From NCBI GenBank assembly GCA_000231825.2, contig JH720316.1, positions 37,644 to 101,643 on the forward strand: DNA of 64,000 nt, written 5' to 3'. The notes beneath the pieces are model-generated. The model was not told the DNA's origin. It did not search any database and was given only the letters and a program-made list of their open reading frames with translations. The DNA is from Tetrahymena elliotti 4EA (lineage: Eukaryota; Ciliophora; Oligohymenophorea; Hymenostomatida; Tetrahymenidae). Positions 1-45,810 of the stretch are shown one piece after another (position 1 is the first letter of the stretch; the number at the start of each line of letters is the position of its first letter). Position numbers and translations under genes: made by a program.

Positions 1-3000
1 TTGATTTAATAATTAAAAAATAGTGTGTAATTAATTACTTAAATTTGCTTTTATTCACTGATGATCAAATAAATCTCAATTTAAAATAGTGGGTAGTTAA
101 TTCATGAATTTATGAAATATTAATTAGAATAGCTAGAGAAATCATAAATACTTCTTGGTATAAATATATTTAATAATTATTAAATAATAAATAGAATGTA
201 ACTAATAATTGATTGTTTTTGATTGAAAATGAGAATAAACTCTGATTAAAAAAGCATGTAAATTTATTATAAACTGAATAAAGCGGAATAATAAATATCT
301 ATTTTAAAAATAGCAAGTAATAAATATAGACATATACATACATCTTTACATTATCAGTTACAAAAAAGAAGTTAAATTAATTGAAAATCAAAATAGGAAG
401 TAATATTTTTAAATAAAGATAGAACACAAATTATTATAAATTAACTAATATTTTATTAGGGAGTAAATACTATTTGGTGAATTAGTTAATTTTAGTAAAA
501 ATACAATGATCAATTTCAAATTAATAGGGATATCAACAAGTAAATTAGTTTGAAAGACATTTACTTGGTATCAAAATAAAATGAATTTTGTTAATATTCA
601 AAGAGGAGGAGAGTAAGAAAGAATTCAGAATCAAAATGAACTTAAGTTGACAAATAAATAAATTAATTAAATTGTTAAAAACAAACAGTCAGTAAAATTA
701 GAATAAACACTCTTTTGATTAAGCAAATTTAATTTATTTGAAATATCTAATTTAATAGTTAGTAAAGTTTTAATTCAACATAATTTAACTACTTATAAAA
801 CTTTAAATTACAAAAACCGAATAACAACAACAAAAATAAAAGGAAGTAAATTAATTAATAAACATAATTATTTATTTGCTTTTAATCAGTTTAAAATGTT
901 TTTTATTTAAAAATTTGTCTAATTTGAATAAATAGCATGTAAGATAAATTAAACTTAGCACAGAAATTAAAGTGTAACCATATTTCTTTATAGGCCGTAA
1001 TAAATAAATAAATTAATTAATTAGTTAGTTACTTACTTATTTACTTTTTTATTTGCTGATTGATTAATTTTGAAATAATAATATTATAGATTCTGACTAC
1101 AAATACATTTTTAAACATATTTTTTAATTAGATTGTAAGAATACTCAACATCATTTTTATGATTTTACTTGAACACTTCATTTTAATCTTTAAAAAAAGA
1201 TGGTAAATTTATTTTTATTTTTTAATTTTGTTGTAAAATTTAACTTTATATTTAATATAGGGAGAGGTAATTCTTAACATTTAGTTTCTAATAAGAAATG
1301 TAAAACTTCTTGAATATCTAAAATAGCAGGTAATTCTTCACTCTGCTTAATTCTAATAAATATGAACCAAATCACTATTAAAATAGTGAGTATAAAACTT
1401 TCAAGGACTCAAATTGATTTTAAGAAATAAATTTGTATTTAAAATAGTTGGTAATAATATCTTCAATTATTTAATTATAAAAATATAAATACAATTCTAC
1501 TTATTAAAATAGGAAGTAACAAGAAATATTTTGGGTTATAATTAATAGATTTTAATAAAGGAAACTGTAAATAAATAAACAAAATAACTAATAAGACTAT
1601 GACTAAATAAATTTTTAATAATAATTAGGATGTAATCAAATTATCTATTAACATTTTAATTAAACAAAAATCTATTCAAAAAAGAGGGTAGAACTTGAAA
1701 TACTTTTAACTTTAATATTTTTACTATTATTTTAATAATAAATAGGAAGTAAAATTTAACAATAAAATCATAAAGAGCATGAAGAATACAATACAATTTA
1801 ACTTGTATTTAAATAGAGTGTATCCATTCTTATTATTCAAATTCTAATATTTTAATTACAAAATTATTTTTTTTAATAGTTCGTAATATTTTCAATTAAT
1901 CAGAAAACAATTTTATTGATCAACTAAACCTTATTCCTGAATAAAAAGATTGTAAATATATTTAATCAATAAATCTATTTTATAACTCTTTAAATATTTT
2001 TTGCTTAATCTAAAGGATGTAAGCTAGCTTTACTGATTCACTTGAAGAAAAATAGTTTAAATTCTCTTATTTTAATTCAAAATAAGCAAGTATTTTTTTT
2101 AAGATTGTTTGAAATAAAATTGCTTGAATACCTTTAAAATAAATAAATAAGTGGGTAATCTATCTCTTAAATTAAATTTGGAAAGAAACAAATTAATCAA
2201 GGAATTGACTAAGTTAATTTTTTAACAGAAAGTAAGAATTATTTTAAATTAGAAAGCAAAGTTAATTAATTAATAAATATAATAAATCTAAAAGAAAGTA
2301 ATTGAAATCATTGAATGGACTTAATAGATTTAGATTTAATTATTTACTCTCTCTTATTTTTCAAAATAGAATGTAAATAATCCTTTTGATCTAATTATTA
2401 TCAATTAATTCATTAATATTCTTGAATAAACTTATTTATGCAAAATAGCTAGTAATTTTAGAATTTTATTTATGATTAAAAAGTTAATTAATTATTCATT
2501 TTTAAAATAAAATAATAGTGAGTAATAATTTTTGATGATTTTAGTTGGATTGATAAATAATAATTAAAAATATAAACTTCAAAACAAAACAGTTGGAAGT
2601 AATATTATTCATTTATCACAAATTTTTTTATTTAAATAAATAATTCAAAATAGCGATGAGTAATATCTTTAATAATTCAAAATTGAAAGAAAAATAAATT
2701 TAATTTTCAAATTAAAATAGTTTAAGGTAACAAACATTTTGATAAACATTAATTGAAAAATATTAAAATAAATTTAAAATAAAACAAAAATAGTGATGGG
2801 TAATATTATTAAATGATTTATTATCTGAAAGAGACTGATCTATTTTCTGAATTGAAAATAGTGAGAAGTAATATTATTAATTAAATTCCTTTATTCTTTT
2901 CCATTTTTAACCAAATTTAAAAATAAAAACAGCTACAAGTAATATTGAAACAATCAAATATTATTCATAAATAAATACAATAATTTTTTAAAAATAGAAG

Positions 3001-3979
3001 GTATGATTAGATTATTAAAAGTTTAAAATAATAAATTTAACTTTATTTTTCAAATGTAATAAATAGCTGCAAGTAATACTTAAATTAAATTTTAAAAACA
3101 GAAATAATTGCTTCTGATTAATATTTAAATTAGACTGTAAAATTAATTTATTTTAATGAAAAATAAATAATTGAATCAATTTAAAATAAAATTTAGGAAG
3201 TAACTTGATTGTGAAATACTAAATAGCTGGTAATAAATAATTCTTCAATTAAATAAAAATTCAATTTAGCTGGTAACAATTCCTATTAAATTGAGAAATT
3301 AATAAATAACTTTCTTAAATAATTCAAAAAGCTAGTAAGATTTTCTTGATTTTTAGATGAAGTATTGATGATTTGAATTTAAAAGATAGTAAAATTTTTA
3401 AGGAAGAACTGAGTATCATTCATATTTTATTTTAAAATAATAAATTAATTCATTCAATTAGTGAGTAAATTGTTATTTTGCTTAAGGTTTTATTTAATTA
3501 ATTTTAATATAAAAGGCTGTAAAATTAATCAATTTAAAAAGCTTTTATTAATCAAGTAAGTTAACCAAAAACATAGTTTGTAATAGACTTAATATATTTT
3601 CATCAAGGCTAGTTCATTAATCATTTAACTTTTTAATTAAGCTGGTAAAATTCATATCAAAAACGAATCATCTTTTATTTGTTGATTTAAAATAAATAGA
3701 AAGTAAAAATTTGGAATAAGAAGAATTTTGATAAGTAAATACAAAAATTAATTTTCTTTTGAATTAATATTAGGTAAAATTATACTTTGAAAGATACTGT
3801 TTAAGACAATTCATTATCTTTAAAAACATTCTCATGATAACAGAGAGTAAATGCATTTAATAACCATGCTATTTTTTTACAAAATTAAAAATGGATAAAT
3901 ATACAAAAGTTTGAAGATCTATCATGGAGTGTCATTAGATTCAAGAAATACTAAAATAGAATCAATAGAAAATATTTGA
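1..3979 (+). CDS. Microexon-array gene, copy C (5' end outside window)
   Basis: Product unrecognised. About 55 candidate exons, mostly 3 nt, lie between short GTA...AG introns. Examples: 24-26, 90-92, 195-197, 255-257, 314-316, 397-399, 460-462, 528-539 (12 nt), 604-612 (9 nt), 689-691, 759-761, 843-845, 936-938, 994-996, 1132-1134, 1200-1202, 1261-1266, then about every 60 bases to 3844-3846. Six-base exons cluster at 2593-3072. Joined and read with introns in phase 2, they stay open for about 65 codons and include peptides such as GDHQNMPLWESSDW and GKVSLINGKKIYDW. The other two phases hit TGA. The terminal exon 3910-3979 continues in the same phase (LKIYHGVSLDS, stop TGA 3977-3979). One in-frame TGA arises across exons 3642-3644 and 3700-3702 unless 3642-3644 is skipped. 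Splicing is inferred from motifs only. Confidence 0.6.
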
Positions 3980-4559: not shown

Positions 4560-5060
4560 TCTTTAGTCAAAAATCTAATGGTTTTAATTATTAAATATTT
4601 TTTAATCATAACAAGTTAATTTTTTTAATTAAATGTTAGGTGTATTATACAAATTAAATTATCAATATATTAATTCAAAAAAGGAAACATTAATTGAAAG
4701 ATTTTACTAATAAATAAAGAATCTAAATGAAACAAAAAAAACTATTTAGAAAATCAAATCAAACAATCATAAAATTGATTACAGAATAATTCATCTTTTG
4801 TTTAAAAAAATTAAGATTATTCTTAATTATTCTATTAGCAAGCATCAACTTTGTCAAGTTAAAGCCAAAAAGATAATTCGTTGAAGCAAGAATCTTTGAA
4901 AAAAAAATAAATTTCAATTTTTTAGCAAAATCAGAATTTGAAATAGAATATTTAGCAAGAAGAAATTATGTCTAACAAGTAATTAACTTTTATTTAACAA
5001 ATTAAAAAATAGCTAATTAGCTGATTACTTCTTAAATACTCTTTTACTTCTTGAGATTTA
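4560..5060 (+). pseudogene. Decayed tail of the protein kinase at 24536-26409
   Basis: The sequence aligns with the coiled-coil, glutamine/asparagine-rich C-terminal exon of the kinase gene at 25970-26400, including the QMLDELSKLN-like region, the IKNLIETK-like region and the intron beginning GTAATTA near 4980. Several single-base indels break the frame (for example around 4670-4750) and the whole catalytic domain is missing, so this is a relic. It sits immediately 5' of microexon array copy A, just as the intact kinase sits 5' of copy B. The two probably duplicated as one block. Confidence 0.8.
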
Positions 5061-5689
5061 CATTCAAAAATTACAAAAATAAATTTCAGAAAATCAAAAA
5101 ATTGTCTTTTAAAAGAAAAATAAATAGGAAGCTTTCTCTATTGACTGGTTTTACAATATTGAATTTATTCATTGATTGAAAAAAGACTTTAGCTATAAAA
5201 TAGAAGATTATTTAAGAATTTTTATAGAAATAATATTCATAAATAATTATTTGAGATAATTTTAGAAAAATTAACAATCTCTATTAATTATCAAAACAGG
5301 AAGTAATTGTTCATTCATTTTGTATTTAAATATTGTCAAATACATGATTTAACCACTAATTAGAAAGTATCCTTTTTAATTGCTTAATTAAATTAATTGA
5401 TCTTCTTGAACATTAAAAACAGAGGGTACATACACACGCTTAAAAAATAAGTTTATTTCTATTTAATTTTCTTTAATTAAAAGCTAGTAAAATTATCAAT
5501 TTTAAACAGCCTTCTCTCAAAATAATTCATTAATTTTAATTCTATAAAGCCTGTAAAATTTTAACTGCATCTAATATCTCTTAACATATTTAGAAAAAGA
5601 TAATCATTATTTTTATACAAAAGATAGTAATTATTTTAGTCATATTAAACAAACTCATTTAATTATTATTTTCATATTAAAAATAGCAT

Positions 5690-6790
5690 GTAATTAATTA
5701 ATATTCTTGAAGGATTTTAGATTGAAAGATGATAATGATGCAGTTATTTATTTTGATATTAAATATAGGTTGTAATTAATTAATATTCTTGAAGGATTTT
5801 AGATTGAAAGATGGTGATGATACAGCATGCAGAATTTATTTATTTATTTTCATATTAAAATTAGCACGTAATTCATTAATATTGTTGAAGGATTTTAGAT
5901 TGAAAGATGATAATTGCACAATGATGATACAGAATACTGAATAGATTATAAACCTTCATATTAAAAATAGTGGGTAATTAATTAATATTATTGAAGATTT
6001 TAGATTGAAAGATGAGATAATTTTTATGATGATGTATCATGCTGAATATATTGATTTATTTTCATTTTAAAAATAGGTTGTAATTAATTATTTTTCTTGA
6101 AACATTTTAAATTGAATTAAAATGATGATGATGCAGCATGCTGAATTTAGTGATTTATTTTCAAACTAAAAATAGGTTGTAATTAATTAATATTCTTGAA
6201 GGAGTTTAGATTTAAATGATGATAATCATGATGATTTACCATGCAGAATTTTTTTATTTTCATGTTAAAAATAGTGGGTAATGAATTGATATCCTTAAAG
6301 GACTATAGAATGAAAGAAGATGATGCAAAATGCTGAATTTATAGATTTATTTTCTTATTAAAAATAGCGGGTAATTAATTAATATTATTGAAAGATGATG
6401 ACAATTATAATGATGATGCAGCATGCTAGGTTTATTGATTTATTTTCATATTAAAAATAGATCGTAATTGATTATTATTTTAGAAGGATTTTTAGTTGAA
6501 AGAAAACAATAATTAAAATGATTATTATGAAGCATGCTGAATTTATTGATTTTTTCATATTAAAAATAGGTTGTAATTTATTAGTGTTCTTGAAGGATTT
6601 TAGATTGAAAGATGATGGTGATGCAGCTTGCTGAATTTATTTATTTATTTTCATATTAAAAATAGTCTGTAATTAATTAATATTCTTGAAGGATTTTAGA
6701 TTGAAAGATGGTGATGCAGTATCTGAAATTATTTATTTATTTATTTTCATATTAAAAATAGCGAGTAATTAATTAATATTCTTGAAGGAT
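5690..6790 (+). repeat. Tandem array of near-identical introns
   Basis: Eleven to twelve units of about 75-105 bases, each starting GTAATTAATTAATATTCTTG and carrying a TTTTAGATTGAAAGATGATG-like core, a GCAGCATGCTGAATTTATT-like segment and an ATATTAAAAATAG end. Units are separated by 3-base segments that differ from each other (CAT, GTT, CAC, TGG, GTT, GTT, TGG, CGG, ATC, GTT, TCT, CGA). The same unit recurs at 27074-27560 around the assembly gap. Confidence 0.9.
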
Positions 6791-7049
6791 TTTAGATGAA
6801 TTTATTGATTTATTTTTATAAGAGTGTAAAATAAAAAGAACATAGATTAAAAATAAAATGTGTTTCTTAAATAAAAATAGCCTGTAATTTTTTGGAGATT
6901 CAATAAAAATTATTCTTAATTGGTTATTAAGCTAGCTAATAAAATAAATTTATAAAATATAAAATAAGTGAGTACATTTTAAGATTGATTTTTATGATTG
7001 AAAGACAGAATAAACTTTGATAAATTGTAGTGAGTAACGAAACATTTAA

Positions 7050-7135
7050 AAATACATAATTAATCAACTAACTATCTATGAATTGTATTTGCTTGAAAAT
7101 TAAATATAAAGATAATTAGATAGTTAGTTAGTTTA
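7050..7135 (+). other. Hairpin inside a long intron of copy A
   Basis: Bases 7066-7078 and 7117-7129 are perfect 13-bp inverted complements within the putative intron 7034-7183. The corresponding intron of copy B has a 17-bp stem (27801-27817 with 27860-27876). The stem would loop out the middle of an unusually long intron for this array. Confidence 0.7.
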
Positions 7136-8159
7136 TAATAATAAGTAAGTAATCAATTTATAAATTCATTTAAAATTAAATAGGCAGTAAAATATCTAGA
7201 AAATACTTGATTACCTTTATTTAAATCTAAAACTATGTAATGACAAATAGAAAGAAGTAAAAAATACATGAAAATAAAATAAGTTGGATTTATTAACCTA
7301 TTTTTAATTTAAAATAAAATCTAGGAAGTAATTTTTCAATGATATTACATAATTAGAATATGAATTAATTTAAATATTCAATAAAGCATGTAATTTTTTT
7401 TTAAAAACTTAAATTAAAATATTTATTTAATAATTAAAAAATAGTGTGTAATCATTTAAATTTGCTTTTATTCACTGATGATAAAATAAATCTCAATTGA
7501 AAATAGAGGGTAGTTAATTAATTAATTAATTGAATGATGAAATATTTATTAGAACAGCTAGAAATCATAAATATTCTTATAATAAATATATTTTAACAAC
7601 CATAAAATAATAAATAGAAAGTAATAAATAATTGATTGCTTTTGATTGAAAATGAGAATAAACTCTGATTAAAAAAGGATGTAAATATAATATGTAGAAT
7701 AATAAATATTTATTTTCAAAATAGCAAGTAATAAATATAAAGACGCGTACATTTTACATTTTCAGTTAAAAAAAAGAAGTTAAATTAATTAAAAATCAAA
7801 ATAGGCAGTAATATTTTTGAATTTACTTAGAATACTATATAATTATTATAAATTAACTAATAATTTATTAGGCAGTAAATACTATTTGATGATTTAATGA
7901 AGTTTTAGTAAAAATTCAATTATCAATTTCGAATAAGTAGAAATTTAAAATGAATCAGATGAATAGGTTTAAAAGTAAAAAAATAATTAAATGATTAAAG
8001 TGAGAAAATTGATAAAATATTTTGAAAAAGAATAGTGTATCATCATATAATAGGCCAAAGTGATTATTAATAAAGACAATTTTGTGAAAATTTATACAAA
8101 AAAGATTTGAATTATATGGTATTCTGGCTTTTTGGCCTTGTATCTTGAATCTGGGCCAG

Positions 8160-24165: not shown

Positions 24166-24535
24166 AAAGTTGGTAAAATGGACTCATAAAGCTAAATTTC
24201 ATAGCAATAGGAAATGATCTAACAAAAGCTAGTTAGGCACATAGAAAATAGGTAGAAGATCAGGCAAATTTATGCAGATAAGGGTATTTAAATGCTTGAC
24301 AAGCAAGATTTATTGCGTATTTACTCTTTTTATACATTAACATTATAATTATGGTTGCTATTTAATAATTTCGCAATTCTTTTTTGGTTTTAAAAATTAC
24401 TCATTCTCTTTGATCTAATTTTTACTATTATTGCAATGATGAGTTTCTTCAACCAGTATTTATATAAAAATATCATCAGTCGAAGACATTTAAGATCCAA
24501 ATTTGAATGCCAGTTAAATTGATGTCTACTTGGCA
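24166..24535. other. Upstream region of the kinase gene
   Basis: A short open stretch (IAIGNDLTKASQAHRKQVED, about 24197-24256) may be chance. In the kinase frame the sequence from 24450 to the chosen ATG is open but has no start codon, and TGA codons close it at about 24437, so an upstream first exon cannot be excluded. Confidence 0.4.
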
Positions 24536-26409
24536 ATGTAGTAAGAATTATCTCAAAAGGGATATCGCAATTTTAGGTTTTTAGGATAAGGAGCATAAGG
24601 ATTAGTTCTTCTAGCTAAAGAATAGTTCTCTAATAAGAGATTTGCTATCAAAGGAATACTTGTCAAGGATTCCAAAGGAAATGTTGATCAGCTAGCCATG
24701 AAATAGGCTAACCAAGAAATTGATATGCTCAATAAATGCAAAGGATCACCCTATGTTGTGAATTTCATAGGAAAAATAGAAGGAAAACAGCACATATATC
24801 TTGTACTCACAGAGTGCTTAGGTAAAATATTGAGAAGAAGATTACAATCATTTAGAAAATAATATAAGAGGTGAGTGAGATAACCATTCAAAATGTTTAA
24901 AAAAAGGTACTCTCAATCAAATCATATTAAAGAATCCAGATAAAAAGTTGAATGAACTATCAGCTATTAAGTATGCCAAGGATATTACAGAGGGACTTTA
25001 CTTTATTCACTCAAAGAAGTGTTTAGTCAATGACCTAAAAATGGATAATATCCTCATAGATTACAATGGAAATGCTATTGTCTGTAAAAGATCTTTTATT
25101 CAATAAAATTTAGTTGAAAAATCACTAATATTTATTTATTTCTAGCTGATTTTGGATTGGCTGATGATCTACCAAAATAATCAGGATATGCCTTGAATTA
25201 ATATGTATTTTTATATGCTCCTCTTATCAAATAAAATACATTTATTTATGAATTAAGATGGGTAATGTTGCATTCTAGGCACCTGAGTGCTATGATCCAC
25301 AACACTATGACACTTACTCTTTAGAGTATTAAAACTTAGGAATCGCTGTTAAAAGAGAGCCAAGTCAAAGAGTAATTTTTTTTTATTAAAGAAGATATTG
25401 AATAATAAAACCTCACTAACTTAATAAAGAGTGAAGCATGCTCATTAGGTAAAGCAGAAGAAATGATAAGCAAGACAACTTAATTTCTTTATAAATTTGA
25501 TAAAAGGCTACCTTATTTACACTATGATCTCAGGTTTCAGTAGCAGCATGATGTTCAACAAGCACAATCCTTTGCCATATAAGCCTGAATTCTAAAATTT
25601 TACTTACAAGAGGCAACTTCAATGCATTATTGATGGATTGACTTAATTTATACCAAGAAATAGGTTTGACATCAAAGATGTTTTAATTATATTAAAAGGA
25701 ATTATTTCATTTGAATTTTCTTTAGATAGTAAGTTTAATGATCTAGTAGAAGCTGAAGAAGAAGTAGTGTAGTAAATAATTAAACCATTACAGAATGAAA
25801 TTGAATTGGTTCAACACTTTAAAAATAAGTTTTATCCAATCATGTATGCATGCAGCTTTTTAAGTTTTCTGATAACTAACTAAATATTTTTTATAGTAAA
25901 AGTGAATAGAAGTTACTTTAGAAGCTTAAATCAATAGCTATTGATTCAAAATAATCTTAACAAGTTGATTTTGTTAATTAAATGTTAGATGAATTATCCA
26001 AATTAAATTGTCAATTTATTAACTCAAAATAGGAAATATTAATTGAAGGACTTTATTCATAAATAAAGAATCTGATTGAAACAAAAAGTTATTTAGAAAA
26101 TCAAATCAAGCAATTATAGAATTGTTAACAGAATAATTCATCTTTTGTTTAAAAAAATTAAGATTATTCTAATTAGGTATTCAATTCGCAAGTTTAGCCA
26201 AATTCAAGTCAAAAAGATAATTTGTTCAATCAAGTATCTTAGAAGAAAACAGATGAAATTTTAAATTTTTAGCATATTCAGAATTTAAAACAGAAAATTT
26301 AGCAACAATAAATTAAATCTAACAAGTAATTAGACTTTTGTTTGATATTTTTATAAAAAATAGCTAGCTAATCCAAAGATTACTTCTAAAATTTTCTTTT
26401 ACTTCTTGA
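24536..26409 (+). CDS. Protein kinase with coiled-coil Gln/Asn-rich tail
   Basis: Exons: 24536-24821, 24907-25083, 25146-25204, 25258-25371, 25430-25448, 25534-25843, 25897-26325, 26364-26409; 479 codons, phases consistent throughout. Ordered kinase motifs: glycine loop GQGAQG (residue ~22), FAIK with the ATP lysine (~44), a helix-C glutamate in QANQEIDML, catalytic loop LVNDLKMDNIL (aspartate, lysine and asparagine kept, but the usual H-R is V-N), DFG, then FQAPE and SLGIAV-like subdomain pieces. The C-terminal third is a Gln/Asn/Lys-rich coiled coil. The start is the first in-frame ATG after upstream TGA codons. The last exon is less certain: without intron 26326-26363 the frame stays open to about 26630. 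A decayed copy of the tail lies at 4560-5060. Substrate unknown. Confidence 0.8.
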
Positions 26410-26679
26410 GGTTTCTATTGAGCAAATTACAAATATAAATTTAAGAAAATCAAATATTTGCCTTTTTAAAATAAAATTAAATAGCAAGCCTTCTATATTG
26501 ACTAGCTTTATGATATTGGATTTATTTGTTGATTAATTTATTGATTTAGCTATTATATCAAATATTAATTTATAAATTTAAATCAATACTTTTCTTAAAT
26601 AATCACAATTCTTAAAATTTGTCATTCAAATTTGAGATAATTTAGAAAAAGTAACATTCTCTATTAATTATCAAAACAG

Positions 26680-29600
26680 GAAGTAATTGTCATTCTTATT
26701 TGAATTTCAATTGCCAAATACATGATTTAACTATTAATTAGAAAGTATCCTTTTTCAATTGCTTCCAATTAAATTAATTAATTGATCTTCTTGCACATTA
26801 AAAACAGAGGGTATATACATACTTAGAAAATAACTCTATTTCTATTTAATTTACATTAATTAACAGCTAGTAAAATTATTAAAGTTAAATAGTCCTCTCA
26901 AAATAATTCATTAATTCTATAAAGCCTGTAAAATGTTAATTGCTTCTTATATCTCTTAACATATTTAGAAAAGATAATCATATATTCACTTATTTTTTAT
27001 ATAAAAGATTGTAATTATTTTAATCATTTTAAACTAACTCATTTAATTATTATTTTCATATTAAAAATAGCGAGTAATTAATTAATATCCTTGAAGGATT
27101 TTAGATTGAAAGATGATGGTGATGAGCATGCTGAATTTATTTATTTATTTTCATATTAAAAATAGNNNNNNNNNNNNNNNNNNNNNNNNNNNNNNNNNNN
27201 NNNNNNNNNNNNNNNNNNNNNNNNNNNNNNNNNNNNNNNNNNNNNNNNNNNNNNNNNNNNNNNNNNNNNNNNNNNNNNNNNNNNNNNNNNNNNNNNNNNN
27301 NNNNNNNNNNNNNNNNNNNNNNNNNNNNNNNNNNNNNNNNNNNNNNNNNNNNNNNNNNNNNNNNNNNNNNNNNNNNNNNNNNNNNNNNNGTAATTAATTA
27401 ATAGATTGAAAGATGATTTGATGGTGATGCAGCATGCTGAATTTATTTATTTGTTTTCATATTAAAAATAGTGTGTAATTAATTAATATTCTTGAAGGAT
27501 TTTAGATTGAAAGATGATGGTGATACAGCATGCTGAATTTATTTATTTATTTTTATTTTAAAAATAGAGTGTAAATAAAAAGAACATAAATTAATATTAA
27601 AATGTGTTTCTTAAATAAAAATAGTCAGTAATTTTTTGGAAACTAAATAAAAATTAGTCAAAATGGATAATAAAGTAGCTAACAAAATAAATTTATAAAA
27701 TAAAGGGAGTAAATTTTAAGATTGATTTTTATGATTGAAAGGTAGAATAAACTTTGATAAATTGTAGTGAGTAACGAAATACTTAAAATTATATAAAATA
27801 AACTAACTAACTATCTATCTATCAATTGTATTGACTTTGCAAGTTAAATAAAAAATAATTAGATAGTTAGTTAGTTAATTTAAAATATGCAGAAATGAAT
27901 TGATAAATTCCTTTAAAATTAAAATAGGCAGTAAAATTTCTAGAAAATAGTAGATTAGTTGTGTTTAAATCTAAAAATTATGTAATATCAAATAGAAAGT
28001 AAAAAAAATACATGAAAATAAAATAATTTGGATTAATTGACCTATTTATAATTTAAAATATAATATAGGGAGTAATTTTTAATTGATCTTAATTAAGTAG
28101 AATTCGAAAAAACTTAAATATTCAATAAAGATTGTAATTTTTTTTAAAAAAACTGAAATTAAAATATTGATTTAATAATTAAAAAATAGTGTGTAATTAA
28201 TTACTTAAATTTGCTTTTATTCACTGATGATCAAATAAATCTCAATTTAAAATAGTGGGTAGTTAATTCATGAATTTATGAAATATTAATTAGAATAGCT
28301 AGAGAAATCATAAATACTTCTTGGTATAAATATATTTAATAATTATTAAATAATAAATAGAATGTAACTAATAATTGATTGTTTTTGATTGAAAATGAGA
28401 ATAAACTCTGATTAAAAAAGCATGTAAATATAATATAAGCTAAATAAAGTAGAATAATAAATATTTATTTTAAAAATAGCAAGTAATAAATATATAGAAA
28501 TATACATACATCTTTATATTTGCAGTTACAAAAAAGAAGTTAAATTAATTGAAAATCAAAATAGGGAGTACTATTTGAATAAAGATAGAATACAAATTAT
28601 TATAAATTAACTAATATTTTATTAGGCAGTAAATACTATTTGGTGATTTAGTTAAATTTTAGTAAAAATACAATGATCAATTTCAAATTAATAGTGATAT
28701 CTACAAGTAAATTAGTTTGAAAGACATTTACTTGGTATCAAAATAAAATGAATTTTGTTAATATTCAAAGAGGAGGAGAGTAAGAAAGAATTCAGAATCA
28801 AAATGAACTTAAGTTGACAAATAAATAAATTAATTAAATTGTTAAAAACAAACAGTCAGTAAAATTAGAATAAACACTCTTTTGATTAAGCAAATTTAAT
28901 TTATTTGAAATATCTAATTTAATAGTTAGTAAAGTTTTAATTCAACATAATTTAACTACTTATAAAACTTTAAATTACAAAAACCGAATAACAACAACAA
29001 AAATAAAAGGAAGTAAATTAATTAATAAACATAATTATTTATTTGCTTTTAATCAGTTTAAAATGTTTTTTATTTAAAAATTTGTCTAATTTGAATAAAT
29101 AGCATGTAAGATAAATTAAACTTAGCACAGAAATTAAAGTGTAACCATATTTCTTTATAGGCCGTAATAAATAAATAAATTAATTAATTAGTTAGTTACT
29201 TACTTATTTACTTTTTTATTTGCTGATTGATTAATTTTGAAATAATAATATTATAGATTCTGACTACAAATACATTTTTAAACATATTTTTTAATTAGAT
29301 TGTAAGAATACTCAACATCATTTTTATGATTTTACTTGAACACTTCATTTTAATCTTTAAAAAAAGATGGTAAATTTATTTTTATTTTTTAATTTTGTTG
29401 TAAAATTTAACTTTATATTTAATATAGGGAGAGGTAATTCTTAACATTTAGTTTCTAATAAGAAATGTAAAACTTCTTGAATATCTAAAATAGCAGGTAA
29501 TTCTTCACTCTGCTTAATTCTAATAAATATGAACCAAATCACTATTAAAATAGTGAGTATAAAACTTTCAAGGACTCAAATTGATTTTAAGAAATAAATT

Positions 29601-32195
29601 TGTATTTAAAATAGTTGGTAATAATATCTTCAATTATTTAATTATAAAAATATAAATACAATTCTACTTATTAAAATAGGAAGTAACAAGAAATATTTTG
29701 GATTATAATTGATAGATTTTAATAAAGGAAACAGTAAATAAATAAACAAAATAACTAATAAGACTAGGACTAAATAGATTTTTAATAATAATTAGGATGT
29801 AATCAAATAGTCTATCAACATTTTAATTAAACAAAAATCTATTCAAAAAAGAGGGTAGAACTTGAAATACTTTTAACTTTAATATTTTTACTATTATTTT
29901 AATAATAAATAGGAAGTAAAATTTAACAATAAAATCATAAAGAGCATGAAGAATACAATACAATTTAACTTGTATTTAAATAGAGTGTATCCATTCTTAT
30001 TATTCAAATTCTAATATTTTAATTACAAAATTATTTTTTTTAATAGTTCGTAATATTTTCAATTAATCAGAAAACAATTTTATTGATCAACTAAACCTTA
30101 TTCCTGAATAAAAAGATTGTAAAATATATTTAATCAATAAATCTATTTTATAACTCTTTAAATATTTTTTGCTTAATCTAAAGGATGTAAGCTAGCTTTA
30201 CTGACTCACTTGAAGAAAAATAGTTTAAATTCTCTAATTTTAATTAAAAATAAGCAAGTATTTTTTTTAAGATTGTTTGAAATAAAATTGCTTGAATAAC
30301 TTTAAAATAAATAAATAAGTGGGTAATCTATCTCTTAAATTAAATTTGGAAAGAAAGAAATTAATCAAGGTATTGACTAAGTTAATTTTTTTAACAGAAA
30401 GTAAGAATTATTTTAAATTAGAAAGCAAAATTAATTAATTAATAAATATAATAAATCTAAAAGAAAGTAATTAAAATCATTGAATGGACTTAATAGATTT
30501 AGATTTAATTAATTACTCTCTCTCATTTTTCAAAATAGAATGTAAATAATGTTTTTGATCTAATTATTATCAATTAATTCATTAATAATCTTGAATTAAC
30601 TTATTTATGCAAAATACTAGCTAGTAATTTTAGAATTTTATTTATGATTAAAAAGTTAATTAATTATTCATTTTTAAAATAAAATAATAGTGAGTAATAA
30701 TTTTTGATGATTTTAGTTGGATTGATAAATAATAATTAAAAATATAAACTTCAAAACAAAACAGTTGGAAGTAATATTATTCATTTATCACAAATTTTTT
30801 TATTTAAATAAATAATTCAAAATAGCGATGAGTAATATCTTTAATAATTCAAAATTGAAAGAAAAATAAATTTAATTTTCAAATTAAAATAGTTTAAGGT
30901 AACAAACATTTTGATAAACATTAATTGAAAAATATTAAAATAAATTTAAAATAAAACAAAAATAGTGATGGGTAATATTATTAAATGATTTATTATCTGA
31001 AAGAGACTGATCTATTTTCTGAATTGAAAATAGTGAGAAGTAATATTATTAATTAAATTCCTTTATTCTTTTCCATTTTTAACCAAATTTAAAAATAAAA
31101 ACAGCTACAAGTAATATTGAAACAATCAAATATTATTCATAAATAAATACAATAATTTTTTAAAAATAGAAGGTATGATTAGATTATTAAAAGTTTAAAA
31201 TAATAAATTTAACTTTATTTTTCAAATGTAATAAATAGCTGCAAGTAATACTTAAATTAAATTTTAAAAACAGAAATAATTGCTTCTGATTAATATTTAA
31301 ATTAGACTGTAAAATTAATTTATTTTAATGAAAAATAAATAATTGAATCAATTTAAAATAAAATTTAGGAAGTAACTTGATTGTGAAATACTAAATAGCT
31401 GGTAATAAATAATTCTTCAATTAAATAAAAATTCAATTTAGCTGGTAACAATTCCTATTAAATTGAGAAATTAATAAATAACTTTCTTAAATAATTCAAA
31501 AAGCGAGTAAGATTTTCTTGATTTTTAGATGAAGTATTGATGATTTGAATTTAAAAGATAGTAAAATTTTTAAGGAAGAACTCAGTATCATTCAGATTTT
31601 ATTTTAAAATAATAAATTAATTCATTCATATAGTGAGTAAATTGTTATTTTGCTTAAGGTTTTATTTAATTCATTTTAATATAAAAGGCTGTAAAATTAA
31701 TCAATTTAAAAAGCTTTTATTAATCAAATATTAACAAAAAACATAGCTTGTAATAGACTTAATATATTTTCATCAAGGCTAGTTCATTAATCATTTAACT
31801 TTTTAATTAAGCTGGTAAAATTCATATCAAAAACGAATCATCTTTTATTTTTTATTTGTTGATTTAAAATAAATAGAAAGTAAAAATTTGGAATAAGAAG
31901 AATTTTGATAAATAAATACAAAAATTAATTTTCTTTTGAATTAATATTAGGTAAAATTATACTTTGAAAGATACTGTTTAAGGCAATTCATTATCTTTAA
32001 AAACATTCTCATGACAACAGAAAGTAAATGCATTTAATAACCATGCTATTTTTTTACAAAATTAAAAATGGATAAATATACAAAAGTTTGAAGATCTATC
32101 ATGGAGTGTCATTAGATTCAAGAAATACTAAAATAGAATCAATAGAAAATATTTGGACACACCTAAACCATAAAATAAAATGGAATATGAAATGA
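26680..32195 (+). CDS. Microexon-array gene, copy B (gap-interrupted)
   Basis: The most complete copy, with about 70 candidate exons, nearly all 3 nt. First: 26680-26682, 26742-26744, 26808-26810, 26867-26869, 26925-26927, 27008-27010, 27071-27073. Then the N gap, then 27472-27474, 27568-27570, 27625-27627, 27706-27708, 27768-27770, 27928-27930, 27996-27998, 28069-28071, 28131-28133 and 28190-28192. From there it follows copy C at +28166, including exons of 6, 9 and 12 nt. Phase-2 joining gives KKGYLF before the gap and DEQKEFVGIIKEHDIYKGG after it, then the copy C peptide with a few replacements (for example L to Q near 29735). The terminal exon 32087-32195 continues in phase (LKIYHGVSLDS) to TGA. 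As in copy C, an in-frame TGA arises just upstream unless one triplet is skipped. No first exon with ATG was identified. Function unknown. Confidence 0.6.
27166..27389. other. Assembly gap (224 N)
   Basis: A run of Ns falls between an AAATAG intron end and a GTAATTAATT intron start, inside the near-identical intron tandem array. Copy A has about twelve microexons over the corresponding interval, so the gap probably hides several exons and its length may be arbitrary. Confidence 0.98.
27801..27876 (+). other. Intronic hairpin of copy B
   Basis: Bases 27801-27817 pair perfectly with 27860-27876 (17 bp), with a loop of 42 bases. It lies inside the putative intron 27771-27927 and is the counterpart of the 13-bp hairpin at 7066-7129 in copy A. 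Confidence 0.7.
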
Positions 32196-32395: not shown

Positions 32396-33165
32396 TTAAT
32401 AAAAATTAATTTTTCTAAATCAAGGTTGAGAAATTTCTATCTAACCTACCTACATACATACAATAAATTTCTGATCTAAATTTTGTAAATTTCATTTAAA
32501 TTTTATTTTTAAAAAATTGTTTCAAAGAGTTGAAATAAATTAAAAAAAAAATAGTGAACTCAGATAGAGGCATTAGATTTGGGACCAGACTGTATTGATG
32601 GACTCACGAGAGATTGCGCTAATAGTTCAGTCAAAGTTAATTTTTTCACTAAAAAACTTTAACTACTAATTTAAGAGTTCAAAAAAAATTGTTGATAACT
32701 GTTAAATACTTAGTTAACATAAAATTTTTAATGTTAAAAATAGTTATTAAAATAAAATGGGGGAAAAGTATATAATTAAAAATACAAAAACTTATGTTTT
32801 TTTGAATAATTGGATTGATAATATATTTTGAGTAGTTATTTATTTTTAATGTATTTGTAATAAATAAATTTAACAAATATTTCACTTATAAAATCTAACC
32901 ATAAAATTGTTAATAGTTCTTTAAATGTTTCACTATTAAAATTAACTGCGCTGTTTAAATTCTTATGTTCTCTGATCTTTAAAAAAATATTTAGGCTCAA
33001 AAGGCTGAACTGTTAGGACCAATTAATACCTTTGATCTCAAATCACTAGATTTTGAATGTGCTATAATAGAATAAAAGATAACTGAAATTTAGATGTACA
33101 AGAGCTCACTTGAAATTTGAAACATTTTTAAATTATTTAAAAATATAAAAATAATATTTTGTCAA
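32396..33165. other. No gene seen
   Basis: AT-rich spacer with one GC-richer island at 32565-32635. The island has no recognisable coding or RNA structure. Downstream is the 3' side of a minus-strand transposase relic. Confidence 0.5.
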
Positions 33166-33169
33166 CAGA

Positions 33170-34174
33170 TACATATTTATAGAATTCAATAAGGTATTTA
33201 TTCTCCTTTATTGTATATGACCTGTTTACATTGAGATGACAAGCTATCTAGCAAATTTCTGCATTCCTTTTAATTTAATATTTCAACTTTGTTAATGTTA
33301 AGGTATTTCTCTATTCAGATTGATGTTTATTTATTGCGGCCCAAATATCCTCCATAGGGTTTAAATCAGTAGAATATGAGGGCCAATTCTTTCTATATTC
33401 AATGAGTTTTCCTTCAATATAATTTTTAACAAAATTAGATGCTTAGGATCGTTATGTTGATATTTTATCCATTTCCTATCACTGAACATCCTTTTCAGAG
33501 AAAGTAATAATTTTTATTTTAAAATTTTACAAAACAAATTAGAATCCATTGTTTCTGCAAACAATTTAATGTCAGGAAAGTCTTACCAAGTAACACCACC
33601 CAACAATGCATGAATCTTTGCTGATGTTTTTTTTATCTTTTTGCTGCTTTTTAGTTTTTATGTCTTTTAACTAGATGTGAGTTGAAAGTGAAGATTAATA
33701 AATAAAGTGAGCTAGTATGATATTATGATTAACATGAGATTTACAAAATTTTATTCTAACATCTTTCTAATTCCAAGCTTAGAGGTAATCGTGAATTTAA
33801 TGAATTATTTTGATATACTTTAGAATTTAATACTCTCCTGGTAGTTTCAAGACACTGTGCCTTTTTAAATTTCTTTTTGATGAGATTTACTGTAGCTTTT
33901 TAATGTTTATTGGCATGTTTTATGATTCTTCCTCTTAATGGTTTTGATGTACTTTTAAAAAGCATAAAAATCATACCTTTTCTTATTTTCTAAAGGTAAT
34001 TCTTTATTTACTTTATCTATTATTTTCCTTAAATTAGATTCTGAGATCTAAATTTTTCTTTTTAGCAATCTAGCTAGACTTTGAACTGATTGATCGCCTG
34101 TTTGTTTCATAGAGAGTTTTTACTCTCTCTTCTTTTGTCAAATGATTTGAATTTTATTTCTCCTTATTTTTCAT
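33170..34174 (-). pseudogene. Tc1/mariner transposase relic
   Basis: Read on the minus strand from a possible ATG at 34172-34174. The N-terminus has a helix-turn-helix-like segment (SVQSLARLLKRKI, about 34050-34095). The core contains IHALLGGVTW (about 33583-33614), then DFPDIKLFAETMDSNLF, then QHNDPKH (about 33437-33460), matching the Tc1 Q-D-N-A-P-x-H aspartate block, and NWPSYSTDLNPMEDIWAAI (about 33335-33390), the D-L-N-P-x-E block. The last two are separated by a one-base frameshift, and another frameshift lies near the N-terminal helix-turn-helix, so it is inactive. It lies between the microexon gene and the plus-strand LRR gene. Confidence 0.75.
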
Positions 34175-34618
34175 AAAAATTGAAAAAATTGATAAGTGTT
34201 TTAATTTTATATTTTTAATTTCTCGACATACAAATTTACATTTAATTTTAATCGTTTTAAAGGAAAAAAAATTAAATAAAATCCAGAATCAATTTAATTT
34301 ATAATAACCTACAATTTAAAAAAAATAAAAAATATTTCTTTCAAGTAACTAGTGATCTCCTGTAAATTCATTTTCTCTAATTTATTGATTTATTGAACAT
34401 AATTATTTTTTTAATTAATTTATCTCTTTGTTTTGTTATCAAAATTATTAAAGACCAAAACCTCTTCATATATCAATAGTAAAAAGAAATTGAATTAAAT
34501 TACTTACAGTGTGATAAGTTTTGCAGAATTTATTGATAATTGAATTATTTTGAGAAGTAATAAAACATACATACATTGATTGGCTAATATAATTTTGATT
34601 ATCAAAGTAAAAAATATA

Positions 34619-40821: not shown

Positions 40822-43800
40822 ATGAAAGTAGAATTAAATTAAGTCAAAAATGGATAGCTAAAACCAATAAAAAAATTTATTTTAAGCAAATCTAAAAAAT
40901 ATTATCTGATAAACTAATTAATAATTCATTTATTTTTGGTTGTTTTAGCTCTTTATTGTCTGGCACAGCTTGATTAAAAACTACTAGGATCTTTTATCAT
41001 TATAGTATTAGCAGTGTTTTCATTTTTAAAATACTTAAATGTTCATTCTTTAAGGAAAAAAACAATTCAGAGGTCAGAAGTATCTTAAAAATAAGAAGCC
41101 TTGAAAGTAAAATAGGAAAATGCTGATTCTATTTAAAAAGTAGAGCTTTTAGAGTTTTTTTTTGGTTTAATTGTGTCGGCTATTTTTATTTCTACTTTTG
41201 AAGTGATAATGATCATAAAATTAAATAATCATCTTGTTGTGGTATTATCGATGTTTATTTAGTTCTTTTTCAGGATTGAAACACAATATGTTAAAAATAC
41301 TAGATTAATCTTATTCTTTATAGTTATTATTTAGAGTTATTCTCTTATTCGCCTTTAATTCTTAAGTGAATTTGATAATTTTACTATATTTATTAACATC
41401 TTGTTGTTCTTTCAATAGGTTTTAAACTATAAAATATTTAATTCAGAAAGCTAAAAAGTTGTATTTCAAAAAAACAATAATTCCAATTAAAGAAATATAG
41501 CTAATTATCTTCAATAAAGTATTCTATAAACAATCCCAGAAGGTTTAGCTGTATTAAATGCTGATAAATAAATATTGTATTCTAATATCTCTCTAAAAAA
41601 AATACTTAACTGTAGAACTAATAAAGATTTATTAAACAATTTATTGAAATTAGGTTAAAAAACGAATAATAATAATAATAGCTATAAATAAGAGCAGCAA
41701 TCATAGCTTGAATAAAGCATGCTATAATTAAATAATTTAATCTAAAACTGTTAAATAAAGGAAACGGAAGTTATTAAAAACAACTCACCTGTTAACCAGA
41801 TTGCCTTCAATAATATTTAAGATAAATATTTCTAGAAAAATAAAAATGATATTAAAAATTAAAATTTTGATAAAACAAAAAACAGTTTTAGTAACTAAAA
41901 GAAAGAATAATTTTAATCAGATCCATCAAAATAAAATCAAACTAAAACTAAAAAAATTGAAGATTAAAAATATTTGCACTGCCTTTCCTAGGAAATTAAG
42001 TTTTCAGAATCTAAACAAATGCAAAATTCAATGACTTAACAAAAAATATTTAAAGAAAGGAAATTCTAAACCTTAAATCTAAATTTATCCAAATTTTCTA
42101 AAATGGGCACAAATGTAATTTTATTCTTTCATATCATTTCTAAAATATGTTTTAATCACTTAGAGATACTTATTTAGCATTTAAACAAATGCACAGAGGG
42201 AATTTATTTTCTTAAATACCAAAATTATCATTAAACTTTTTTGATAATGAAAATTCATTTTGATGATGTCTTACTTTTTAATTATATTTTTGAATCCCTC
42301 TCAATTATTGAAATCTGAAATGCTTTTTGAAGAAAGTGTTTCAGTTTTATAATAAAAATTATTGACTTGATAAATTATTTTTTTAATGCTTTTTAAAATT
42401 AAATTTTTAATGATTAAAAGAATGAATAGGAAATAGGACAAAATTTAATGAAATAAAAGTAAAATGAAGAAATAATTAGCTAAGATTTAGAAGATTAGTA
42501 AAGTTAAAAATATGAAAAAAGTAATCAATCTCCAGCGAATTTTCCAGAAAACATATCTTAAGATTTAAATAAAAGAGAGCTATCAGACTAAGGTATTTAT
42601 TATTGTTAAGACGAAGTTAAATAAGAAGATAAAAGTAATAATGCAAAATTGCCTAAATTAATTGAAATTTATTCATATTTAAAATAGGTCGAATTTCAAA
42701 TGTAGAATTTAATTCATTTGACAAAAGCAGTATTAGTAGAGCTTAGCAAAATTAGGATGATTTTACAATTAAAGGTATGAGTTCTTTACTGAATTAAAAC
42801 ATAAATATGTAGGGCTTTGAAGTATTAATTAATAATATGCAAGCTGATATCAGTGAAGCTTAAGCTTAAAAAGATAATTAGATTATTTTTACAGAAAATA
42901 TGAAAACAAATGAGCCATTATAAAATGAACGCAATCTAGATTTTGCAAACGAAATAAAATTAAAATTCAAGATAAGAGAATGTAATATTAAATCATGATA
43001 AATTTAACTTTAAACATTTTTTAATAGAATAAAAAGAAAAATAATAAATTGGTTTAAAAAGAATTGATTTCTCGGAGTTAGTAAGCAATTTATTGGAGGA
43101 TACCTAGTAGGAGTTAAAAATACAAAAATAAAAGGAAATTCAAATAGAAAATCAAACCAGAAAAAAACAGTATTTATTTTTATATAATTTTATTGAATAG
43201 TGTCTTAGTTATTCTAAAATAAAGGAAATCTGAACAAATTAATAATGATGTAAATTATGATTTGAATTATTTCTAGTAGACCAAAAACATTACCAAATTT
43301 TAGGTTAAATTAAATTTGATTTTATATTTTAATAATTATTTATTTTGATAAAGGTAAGACATAAAAACAAAGATTTGTATGTGTAGCTCATTCCCATAGA
43401 TTTAATGCTAAAAGATTAAAAAAGCAAAGAGCCTTTAGTATTTATTGTAGTTTAGGAATTGTGGTAAGATCTCTATCAAAAAAAAGTAGAGGAGTTGTTA
43501 TAGGAGAAGATGAAGACATTTGCAACCCTCTCACATGAGCTAAGAACTCCATTAAATTGCTCTATTTCTATGCTGGAAGTTCTAAAAGATGAGCTTTAAT
43601 AGGAATAAACAAATAAATATTGCATTGAAGAATACATAGTTCCGGCTCTTTTTTCAAATAAATTACTTTTAAATTAAATAAATGATATCCTTGATTATGT
43701 TTAAATGGATTGTGGAAAATTTAAATATTCTTTTATAGATTTTAATTTGGCAAGTCTTCTTAAAGATTGCTGCAAGCTTGTCAGTATTCAAGCAAAAATG

Positions 43801-45810
43801 AAAAATCTACAGCTTATGGTTGTTTATGATTAAAAAATCAACTAAGAAATATGTTCAGATCAAAATAGAATTCGTTAAATTTTACTTAATTTTTTGTCAA
43901 ATGCTTTAAAATTCACTAAATCTGGATACATTGAGTTGGGATTTAATTAAATATGCCAGAATATTTATCAACTTTATGTAAAAGATAGTGGAATAGGAAT
44001 CACTAAAGAGAATTAAAGAAAAATATTTGGTTTTTGTAACAAAGTAAATGCATGCATTCATTCATTTTAACAACTTTTTTCAATTTAAAATTAAAATAAT
44101 TTTTTTAATAAAAAGATAAATTATTAAAATAAAGAAGAAGAGTAGTTAAATAATCAAGGTTGTGGTTTAGGCTTAATTATTTCTAATTCAATAGCAAAAG
44201 GTTTAGTTAATGATGAATAGTATAATGGAGGAATATCTGTTGAGTCAGAGTATGGCTAAGGCTCAAAATTTAGCATTTTAGTAGAAGATTTAAACTATAA
44301 TATGCAGAGATTGAATGACTAATAGAGTGGCTAAAGTTAAACAATAAAATCTGATAAAAAATCAATTGAGAGCTTAGCTCATTTAGTTAAGGGTTCATAA
44401 ATAGAATAAAAATAGAATGTGAAGAATTCATCATTTTAACATGAGAAATAAAATTTAGATTAAACTGTGAATTCTTCATTCGACTTAAATGAAAATAATT
44501 AAAGCTATTTCTAAAAATAAAATAATTCACTTTATGCTTTTTTTAAAGAAAGCAGTTGTATTAATTGTGATAAATTTAGCAATTATTCTAAAAATACAGA
44601 AACTAATTCAAAACAAAGCAAAATTAGAAGATAAAATAGCAATTCCAATTTAAGTTCAACCTAAGTCATTGAAGATTCTTAGAATTAAGACATTTAAAAT
44701 AATTTGAGCAAAATCTTTTAGATTTAAATTCATAAAAATTTCTAAGAAGATGATAGTGTTTTTTTTCCGAAGAATTAACAAGAAAATTCTTCTTTAAAGC
44801 ATTAAAACCCATAAATAACTTATTAAAGTCCAGTTATTTCAAAAAGACAATTAAATATAGACTAGAATCATCTTAATAAACTTGAATTGTAAAAGTATTA
44901 ACAACAAAATTCTAACTCAAATATCTTCTTAGACAATCAAAATTAAATATATCGAAAAACATTAGGAATTAATTTATAAGAAAATAGTTAAAGTTATTAA
45001 GAAAATACAAGTCAAACAGATTTAGGAAGAAAAATGAAATTTAAACAAATAAATTATCTGACAAATTAAATTAAATCTTTGTAAAGCCCTAAAATATTAT
45101 TTGATGGTAGAGAAGATGCATTTTAAGAATAAGAAGGATTTACTTCTTATCTGAACAATTCTAAAATTTTTAAAGGCTAATATTTATCCAGTTAAAAGTT
45201 AACTACATCTTCCTTTACTAATTTTACAAATGAAAAATTTGAAAAAACAATCAGTTTTAAATCACAAATCAGCAACAATAAAAATTTAGAAATAGAAAGC
45301 TATACTGATTTAAATAAAAATGAAAAACCCATTTCCTTTTCATAGAAAATAGAGTAAATTATTGCTTTTAATTTAGACAAAAAACTTAAATGTAAATGTC
45401 CTTAAATCATGCTTGTCGATGATAATTAATTCAACTTATATGCACTCTCTAAAATTATTCAACAATTCCAATTTGATTTGATCACTTTCTCTGATGGTGA
45501 CTAAGCAATTTAATTCATTAAATCTTAATTCTTTTCTAATTGTTGCAGGTCACCTCAATTGATCTTAATGGATATAGAAATGCCTGTTAAAAACGGCTAT
45601 GAAACTGTCAAAGAAATTATTTAATTTTACAAAAACTTGCAGTACAACAATATTCCTATTATTGTTGCTTGTACTGCCTATGTAGGATAAGAAGACTATT
45701 AAAAATCCATTGAATCTGGCATGAGCGACTTTATTAATAAACCAATCTTAAAAGTAGCTTTCTAAAATTTAATTATCAACTATATTAATGCTATTTGTAA
45801 TAAATATTGA
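40822..45810 (+). CDS. Membrane hybrid histidine kinase with receiver domain
   Basis: Exons: 40822-42114, 42421-42592, 42688-42981, 43028-43169, 43201-43303, 43354-44043, 44116-45810; 1462 aa, all phases consistent. Residues ~28-200 contain about six hydrophobic segments (for example LLGSFIIIVLAVFSFLKYL), so it is a membrane sensor. A PAS-like stretch follows (SILQTIPEGLAVLNADKQIL, ~235). The HisKA box TLSHELRTPLN (phospho-histidine ~728) starts the kinase core, followed by the N box NFLSNALKFTKSGY, DSGIGI and GCGLGLIIS of the ATPase lid. A long Ser/Asn/Gln-rich linker leads to a C-terminal receiver from ~1328: VDDN acidic pair, LMDIEMP phospho-aspartate (~1382), ACTAY and NKP with the invariant lysine. 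It should autophosphorylate and relay to its own receiver. The ATG is the first in frame. The 27-nt segment 43277-43303 could alternatively be an intron. Confidence 0.92.

Follow-up and report, generated by a model that had tools for sequence, protein, structure and literature searches.

A row of 70 microexons, mostly of three nucleotides, predicted to encode the fast-changing tail of a protein kinase in a Tetrahymena-like ciliate

In the parts of the published accounts drawn on here, Tetrahymena genes for leucine-rich repeat (LRR) proteins consist of tandem 90-bp exons separated by near-exclusively phase-2 introns, have expanded recently and evolve fast, with the introns of the young T. thermophila genes peaking near 257 bp and a subset near 122 bp (PMC6564038). 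In the micro-exon genes (MEGs) of Schistosoma, most of the coding sequence is distributed over very small symmetrical exons, alternative splicing is reported and some mature parts show a ratio of replacement to silent substitution rates (dN/dS) >1 (PMC4350168). Equally, the bicycle genes of aphids, whose products are putative plant-gall effectors, contain about 17 exons on average, many of them small and internal and nearly all of one phase ("exon phase 2"), and diverge rapidly, while megacycle possesses over 100 microexons (PMC9168663). At the smallest sizes, single exons of 1 and of 3 nucleotides (nt) can be included by the spliceosome, as shown or reported for Arabidopsis APC11 (PMC4674806) and Drosophila homothorax (PMC7392893). 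The locus analysed here lies in a window of 64,000 nt, positions 37644-101643 of contig C24 in a 90-Mb genome of 134 contigs, and comprises a microexon array at 26680-31814 (+), array C, which together with the protein-kinase exons upstream of it is called copy C; A and B denote the other arrays of the window and L-numbers denote loci of the genome. The DNA probably represents a Tetrahymena-like ciliate and its macronucleus: the kinase groups with those of T. thermophila, its exons are open under the ciliate code, and among eight contig ends fetched, two of which were N, one (on C40) carries eight TTGGGG telomere repeats. Among the matches listed in a search of the literature on microexons or very short exons in ciliates, with preprints (bioRxiv) and most subscription journals outside its scope, no such arrays were found.

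Array C contains 70 microexons on the forward strand, 59 of 3 nt, nine of 6 nt and one each of 9 and 12 nt, none being longer, between phase-2 introns with a median length of 62 nt (range 27-398 nt). The longest intron encloses a run of N at 27166-27389 (+), which starts directly after an AG and stops directly before gtaatt among similar intron units and which, judged from the spacing, appears to conceal two or three further units. Counted from [ACT]AG to GTA over 26600-32100 with the N run excluded, a spacing of 3 nt occurs 61 times and one of 6 nt 11 times, spacings of 9, 12 and 15 nt twice each, a spacing of 0 seven times and each of the out-of-frame spacings 1, 2, 4, 5, 7, 8, 10, 11, 13 and 14 between 0 and 4 times. 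In 1000 dinucleotide shuffles the 3-nt spacing occurred 2.75 times on average and never more than 9 times, and the 6-nt spacing at most 10 times; on the reverse strand of the segment the 3-nt spacing was found three times, the signal being confined to one strand. A splice-chaining program that is blind to frame and permits any exon length of 1-45 nt, with splice-site matrices trained on 3-nt units from copy C and other arrays, returned 70 exons for array C, 70/70 multiples of three, while the chain averaged 2.6 units on 100 shuffles (maximum 8), reached 1 on the reverse strand and comprised 1-4 units in eight other 5.3-kb stretches of the window on either strand. With an independent set of matrices, trained exclusively on L018, L034 and L039, 70/70 exons were again multiples of three and the eight control stretches yielded 1-5 units. 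As an observation the array is secure, and an earlier note on this DNA, which had described about 70 microexons, mostly of 3 nt, at AG-GT spacings divisible by three, was right in these respects.

That note had regarded the array as a stand-alone gene of about 100 residues within a feature ending at 32195. Instead, it forms the 3' part of a kinase gene with its ATG at 24178, the tail is read as about 84 residues (slightly more given the units concealed by the N run) and the frame closes with a TGA that has its A at position 31877. The first coding exon (24178..24316, +) resembles by eye the N-terminal region of the T. thermophila kinase P0001, and the following exons (24480-24821, 24907-25083, 25146-25204, 25258-25371, 25430-25448 and 25507-25843, all +) encode a Pfam Pkinase domain (PF00069, 118.7 bits versus a cut-off of 31.7, expectation value (E) 3.9e-34), in which the lysine of AIK, the D and N of NDLKMDN and DFG are recognized by eye; these exons contain in-frame TAA and TAG and are open when read with the ciliate code. 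A coiled-coil-like exon (25897..26325, +) ends in phase 2 with ..AAC AA/gtaatta and is separated by an intron of 354 nt (26326..26679, +) from the first microexon, GAA at 26680, whose G completes the codon begun by ..AAC AA. The frame then runs through the array to ..GAA TAT GAG CTC TTC TG/A, the stop codon being split by the last intron and its A (31877, +) being the predicted start of the terminal exon. Joined, the kinase exons and microexons give 622 codons, 1616 nt from larger exons and a tail of 252 nt from microexons, with the sole stop at the end, versus 12 and 36 stops in the other two frames, in agreement with the earlier suggestion of frame-preserving exons rather than a random repeat. 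The same suggestion had spoken of one-codon exons, of which the 3-nt size stands; the triplet itself is not a codon, since with phase-2 introns each 3-nt exon completes one codon with its first base and opens the following codon with its other two. The ordinary introns of the kinase gene carry the same kind of splice signals as the array, as scored with matrices trained on array sites.

Array C is thus very probably the 3' part of the protein-kinase gene, with its 70 in-frame units predicted to splice into a tail of about 84 residues closed by the split TGA. The reading of a spliced coding tail is strongly supported by the sequence; from it we infer the successive removal of about 70 short introns by the spliceosome. 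Judged from sequence similarity, the kinase is a member of a lineage-expanded Tetrahymena kinase family, copy L013 being 66% identical to P0001 of T. thermophila SB210. Four T. thermophila kinases, P0003, P0005, P0007 and P0022, show K-Q beyond the coiled coil, like a read-through of AA/GTAA, and some other fetched T. thermophila kinases are named 'partial'; these protein letters hint at the same donor, and perhaps at arrays, in T. thermophila.

Set beside the described systems, array C shares with the LRR genes the occurrence in Tetrahymena, tandem units of fixed exon length, phase 2, recent expansion and fast evolution, whereas in the sections consulted of that account the LRR exons have 90 bp, repeat each other and encode leucine-rich repeats with no kinase tail (PMC6564038); here 59 of 70 exons have 3 nt and the longest has 12. 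By this comparison one evolutionary habit seems to be at work in both, here at one-thirtieth of the exon size and in another gene family. With the MEGs the array has small symmetrical exons and fast evolution in common, but those are genes of an animal parasite for gland and secreted proteins, and rows of consecutive 3-nt exons are not described in the passages of that report drawn on here (PMC4350168); in the kinase gene the small symmetrical exons are restricted to the tail. The bicycle genes, as far as the source goes, equally have numerous small internal exons that nearly all share one phase, a structural likeness and not kinship; they are insect genes (PMC9168663), and in copy C the N terminus leads into the kinase domain. 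MEGs and bicycle genes are, by analogy of structure, the best counterparts found. The exons of bicycle genes are said to be larger than 3 nt, and their proteins are reportedly secreted and carry CYC motifs. APC11 (PMC4674806) and homothorax (PMC7392893) are described with one such exon per gene, versus a row of about 70 here.

The architecture recurs in paralogues. Array A, a second copy with 54 microexons at 24..3644 (+) and the tail VGIIKKEDINKGG...CQYELF followed by the stop, belongs to L009 (G000:C24 from about 34.3 kb), with its kinase outside the window, and kinase or coiled-coil pieces were located by tblastn in L009, L011, L012, L013, L014, L015, L016, L018, L020, L034, L035 and L039, L012 and L016 being mostly masked. 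Array B (5300..7874, +) has 34 microexons, a coiled-coil remnant at 4603-4979 and no match to the kinase exons upstream. When nine other arrays were chained blindly, with exons kept within chosen limits, all exons were multiples of three in A (54/54), L013 (66/66), L011 (64/64), L034 (71/71) and L039 (75/75), and nearly all in L014 (56/59), L015 (70/71), L018 (65/66) and L035 (69/73). The phase-2 frame had no inner stop in ten of ten arrays and the other two frames 1-7 each; in the two copies whose predicted exons were joined from the kinase through the tail, C and L013, kinase plus microexons were without inner stop in one frame. The L013 tail had no uninterrupted match in the genome, which fits a tail made by splicing, though as an empty result it has limited weight. 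Genome-wide, a strict two-unit pattern was found 56 times forward and 18 times in reverse, against 3 and 0 for a backward control, and a looser one 291 and 97 times, against 61 and 65. For 37 kinase matches, out of 51 listed, and 29 clusters of the strict pattern, a cluster lay up to 8 kb downstream on the same strand in 17 cases and up to 8 kb upstream on either strand in two.

Alignment of eight copies of the tail gives the consensus KKGYLYxVxDEQKxxIGxIKKxDxxKGDxQNMxLWDxxxxxKxIGxVSLINGKxIYxxNxxLSxxxNxKxxxxxNCEYELF, and in all 13 tail pairs tried (45 being possible) the predicted frame scored best, with z-scores of 4.7 to 21.7 against permuted exon order. The frame-preserving nature proposed earlier gains from this recurrence, as some of the paralogues have introns that are no longer alike: those of distant pairs are at background identity (0.78 for both L014/L015 and L015/L018, versus 0.77 for unrelated introns). 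Between C and L015, 59 codons are interrupted by an intron in both copies, four in one copy only and 12 in neither. Protein alignment of seven copies gave dN/dS <1 in 19 of 21 pairs, with many dS near saturation and small counts, and the combined guanine and cytosine (GC) content in seven arrays was 0.28-0.38 for microexons and 0.16-0.18 for introns. Across distant copies, these comparisons indicate, the tail is under constraint. That the AG-NNN-GT units are instead non-coding, either repeated in tandem or serving as a set of decoy splice sites, with the in-frame triplets as by-product, is very improbable: some units are indeed tandem copies of a repeat of about 100 bp, but in copy C none of 1178 unit pairs has flanks at least 85% alike, the ordered triplets of copy C match other copies best in one frame, and exon GC is about twice intron GC.

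Several results weigh against a spliced coding tail on the kinase. Outside this genome the tail found no homologue in Pfam, PDB sequences or a large protein collection: its profile retrieved no protein from the collection at E up to 10 and matched none of 33 fetched Tetrahymena kinases. A search of the collection with the whole L013 protein returned kinases only. Weak tail matches to PsaE, SARA_C, DUF7446, Formyl_trans_C_2 and GW (E 0.02-0.32), to endonuclease III-like proteins (0.96 and 0.99) and to CBS proteins (0.09-0.28) were dropped. Among the tail comparisons, C/L039 scored 54 and C/L034 scored 50, below the respective maxima of 56 and 54 in 1000 permutations, and the absence of inner stops is for no single array significant against permuted exon order (P 0.17-0.68). 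Chaining of whole loci was in frame for 75/85 exons in L035 and 77/79 in L039, and was poor in L017, where six of 58 exons broke the frame, and in L019, where eight of 25 did, while L020 yielded just 11 exons amid much N. Searched by tblastn with kinase pieces, L017, L019, L021, L022, L031, L032, L033, L036, L037, L038 and L040 gave no match. Equally, a strict-pattern cluster was lacking for 20 of the 37 kinase matches, and for 12 of the 29 clusters no listed kinase lay up to 8 kb upstream, with the pattern being strict and some copies masked, and L041 (C40:367000-374999), a close kinase copy with kinase exons 3.7% different from L013, is not followed by an array in the downstream sequence retrieved. 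Finally, the tails of close pairs look relaxed or diversifying, with proportions of replacement and silent differences (pN/pS) at a ratio of 0.83-1.23, so that the case for conservation rests on distant pairs with dS near saturation.

Some of these points would fit a relic array, in which the microexons were formerly coding, the present copies are decaying and the kinase ends by read-through at 26326 or by skipping of the array. L041 without an array, array B without a kinase match and the pN/pS near 1 of close pairs are compatible with such decay, as is the frame beyond the donor at 26326, which stays open for 103 codons in copy C. Beyond the homologous donor, however, it is open for only 15 codons in B, 12 in L012, 25 in L013 and 25 in L011, which argues that the extension is not a kept frame, and the arrays of divergent copies retain splice signals, frame and tail sequence. 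A relic is therefore improbable, if less so than the non-coding repeat.

The microexons of the coding tail proposed here differ from their introns in the rate of change. In L013 and L011, the closest pair with two full arrays, 48 of 244 microexon sites (19.7%) but 157 of 4435 sites in the introns between them (3.5%) are different (odds ratio 6.7, P 5e-20); the kinase and coiled-coil exons differ by 3.3%, the kinase introns by 8.3% and 3-nt blocks 10-30 nt on either side of the exons by 1.5-5.9%. An excess in microexons versus introns was also observed for C/A (3.6% versus 1.4%, P 0.019), C/L013 (28.8% versus 19.8%, P 0.001), C/L011 (25.9% versus 20.1%, P 0.032) and L034/L035 (22.6% versus 15.9%, P 0.0044). 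By codon, the L013/L011 tails show 29 replacements and five silent changes among 80 codons, with intron-anchored codons giving a pN of 0.190, a pS of 0.224 and a ratio of 0.85, which replaces a dN/dS of 0.51 obtained from protein alignment. Selection for change is, from these sequences, the simplest reading of the excess; selection on amino acids alone does not fully explain L013/L011, because the pS of the tail also exceeds both the rate in the introns (0.035, P 2.6e-6) and the pS of the kinase (0.074), and with raised silent sites a change process focused on the exons may be the alternative.

Within single arrays, units with flanks at least 85% alike carried identical triplets in 1 of 12 pairs in B, 1 of 7 in L016, 0 of 2 in L015 and 0 of 1 in L020, where equal rates for exons and introns would predict 68-89% identical triplets; C, L039, L018 and L017 contained no pairs with flanks this similar. 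In array B, successive similar intron units of about 100 bp are accompanied by differing triplets (CAT GTT CAC TGG GTT GTT TGG CGG ATC GTT TCT CGA), which contribute a Gly/Phe-rich stretch. In a separate observation, the array introns of A and C are different at 1.4% of sites and the kinase and coiled-coil exons at 13.8%, as though the two parts of the gene had gone through distinct histories in this pair, by exchange or conversion.

Splicing of such a gene would require introns near 62 nt to be recognized as introns, rather than exons as exons. As an acceptor and the next donor 3 nt apart could hardly be bound together, stepwise splicing from one end is likely, in which every splicing event would extend the upstream exon by three bases and expose the next donor. 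Recursive splicing at AG/GT sites resembles this proposed route, which has a 3-base exon instead of none. Arrays may grow by tandem duplication of intron-plus-triplet units, since array B and L016 contain units whose introns are alike, and the triplets would then diversify much faster than the introns. That the segments are cut from DNA as internal eliminated sequences, and not from RNA, is barely conceivable: ciliates do remove many DNA segments in macronuclear development, but the borders here are GT and AG with signals like those of the ordinary introns of the gene and not TA repeats, and in a genome that is likely macronuclear, as the TTGGGG contig end suggests, such sequences would already be absent.

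Being attached to a kinase by a coiled coil and changing fast, the tail of the spliced gene is probably, as a guess, a recognition or regulatory part. A more far-reaching proposal is possible but rather doubtful: the tail would be a domain encoded nearly codon by codon, in which an individual intron splits most of the codons, with the triplets as a hypervariable layer between conserved introns, a codon-by-codon generator of diversity in which the triplets of duplicated units are randomized far faster than the introns and are read out by stepwise, recursive-like splicing.

Microexon rows of a different kind were seen at other loci. In L031 (C1) and L038 (C16), rows that each begin with a 12-nt and a 9-nt exon are apparently open in phase 0 and not phase 2 (YTSYEEIKIRDSG.. 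and WEKYEDIEIKRMN..), with a kinase match in neither locus, and these are perhaps a second gene family with microexon rows. On C5, rows of mostly 3-18 nt exons stand behind a TRAF-zinc-finger-like frame with a weak Pfam match (L036) and behind a glutamine/aspartate-rich frame (L037). Elsewhere in the window, a Tc1/mariner-like transposase remnant at 32950-34260 (-), NWPSYSTDLNPMEDIWAAI.., has its frame in pieces and a DDE_3 match at E 2.2e-4, under the curated cut-off, and a hybrid histidine kinase (HisKA, HATPase_c, Response_reg) at 43261-45807 (+) has no relation to the array.

Under exon-definition models, not even a single 3-nt exon flanked by others of that size would be expected. If the predicted splicing is true, the spliceosome works stepwise along introns with almost no intervening exon, and does so across a gene family, and the lower limit of exon size could be tested directly in a near relative of a laboratory model. 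The change of exons in excess of that of introns needs its own explanation. Equally, annotation may have missed a domain in the 33 Tetrahymena kinases without a match to the tail, many of which are named 'kinase domain protein' and some 'partial'.

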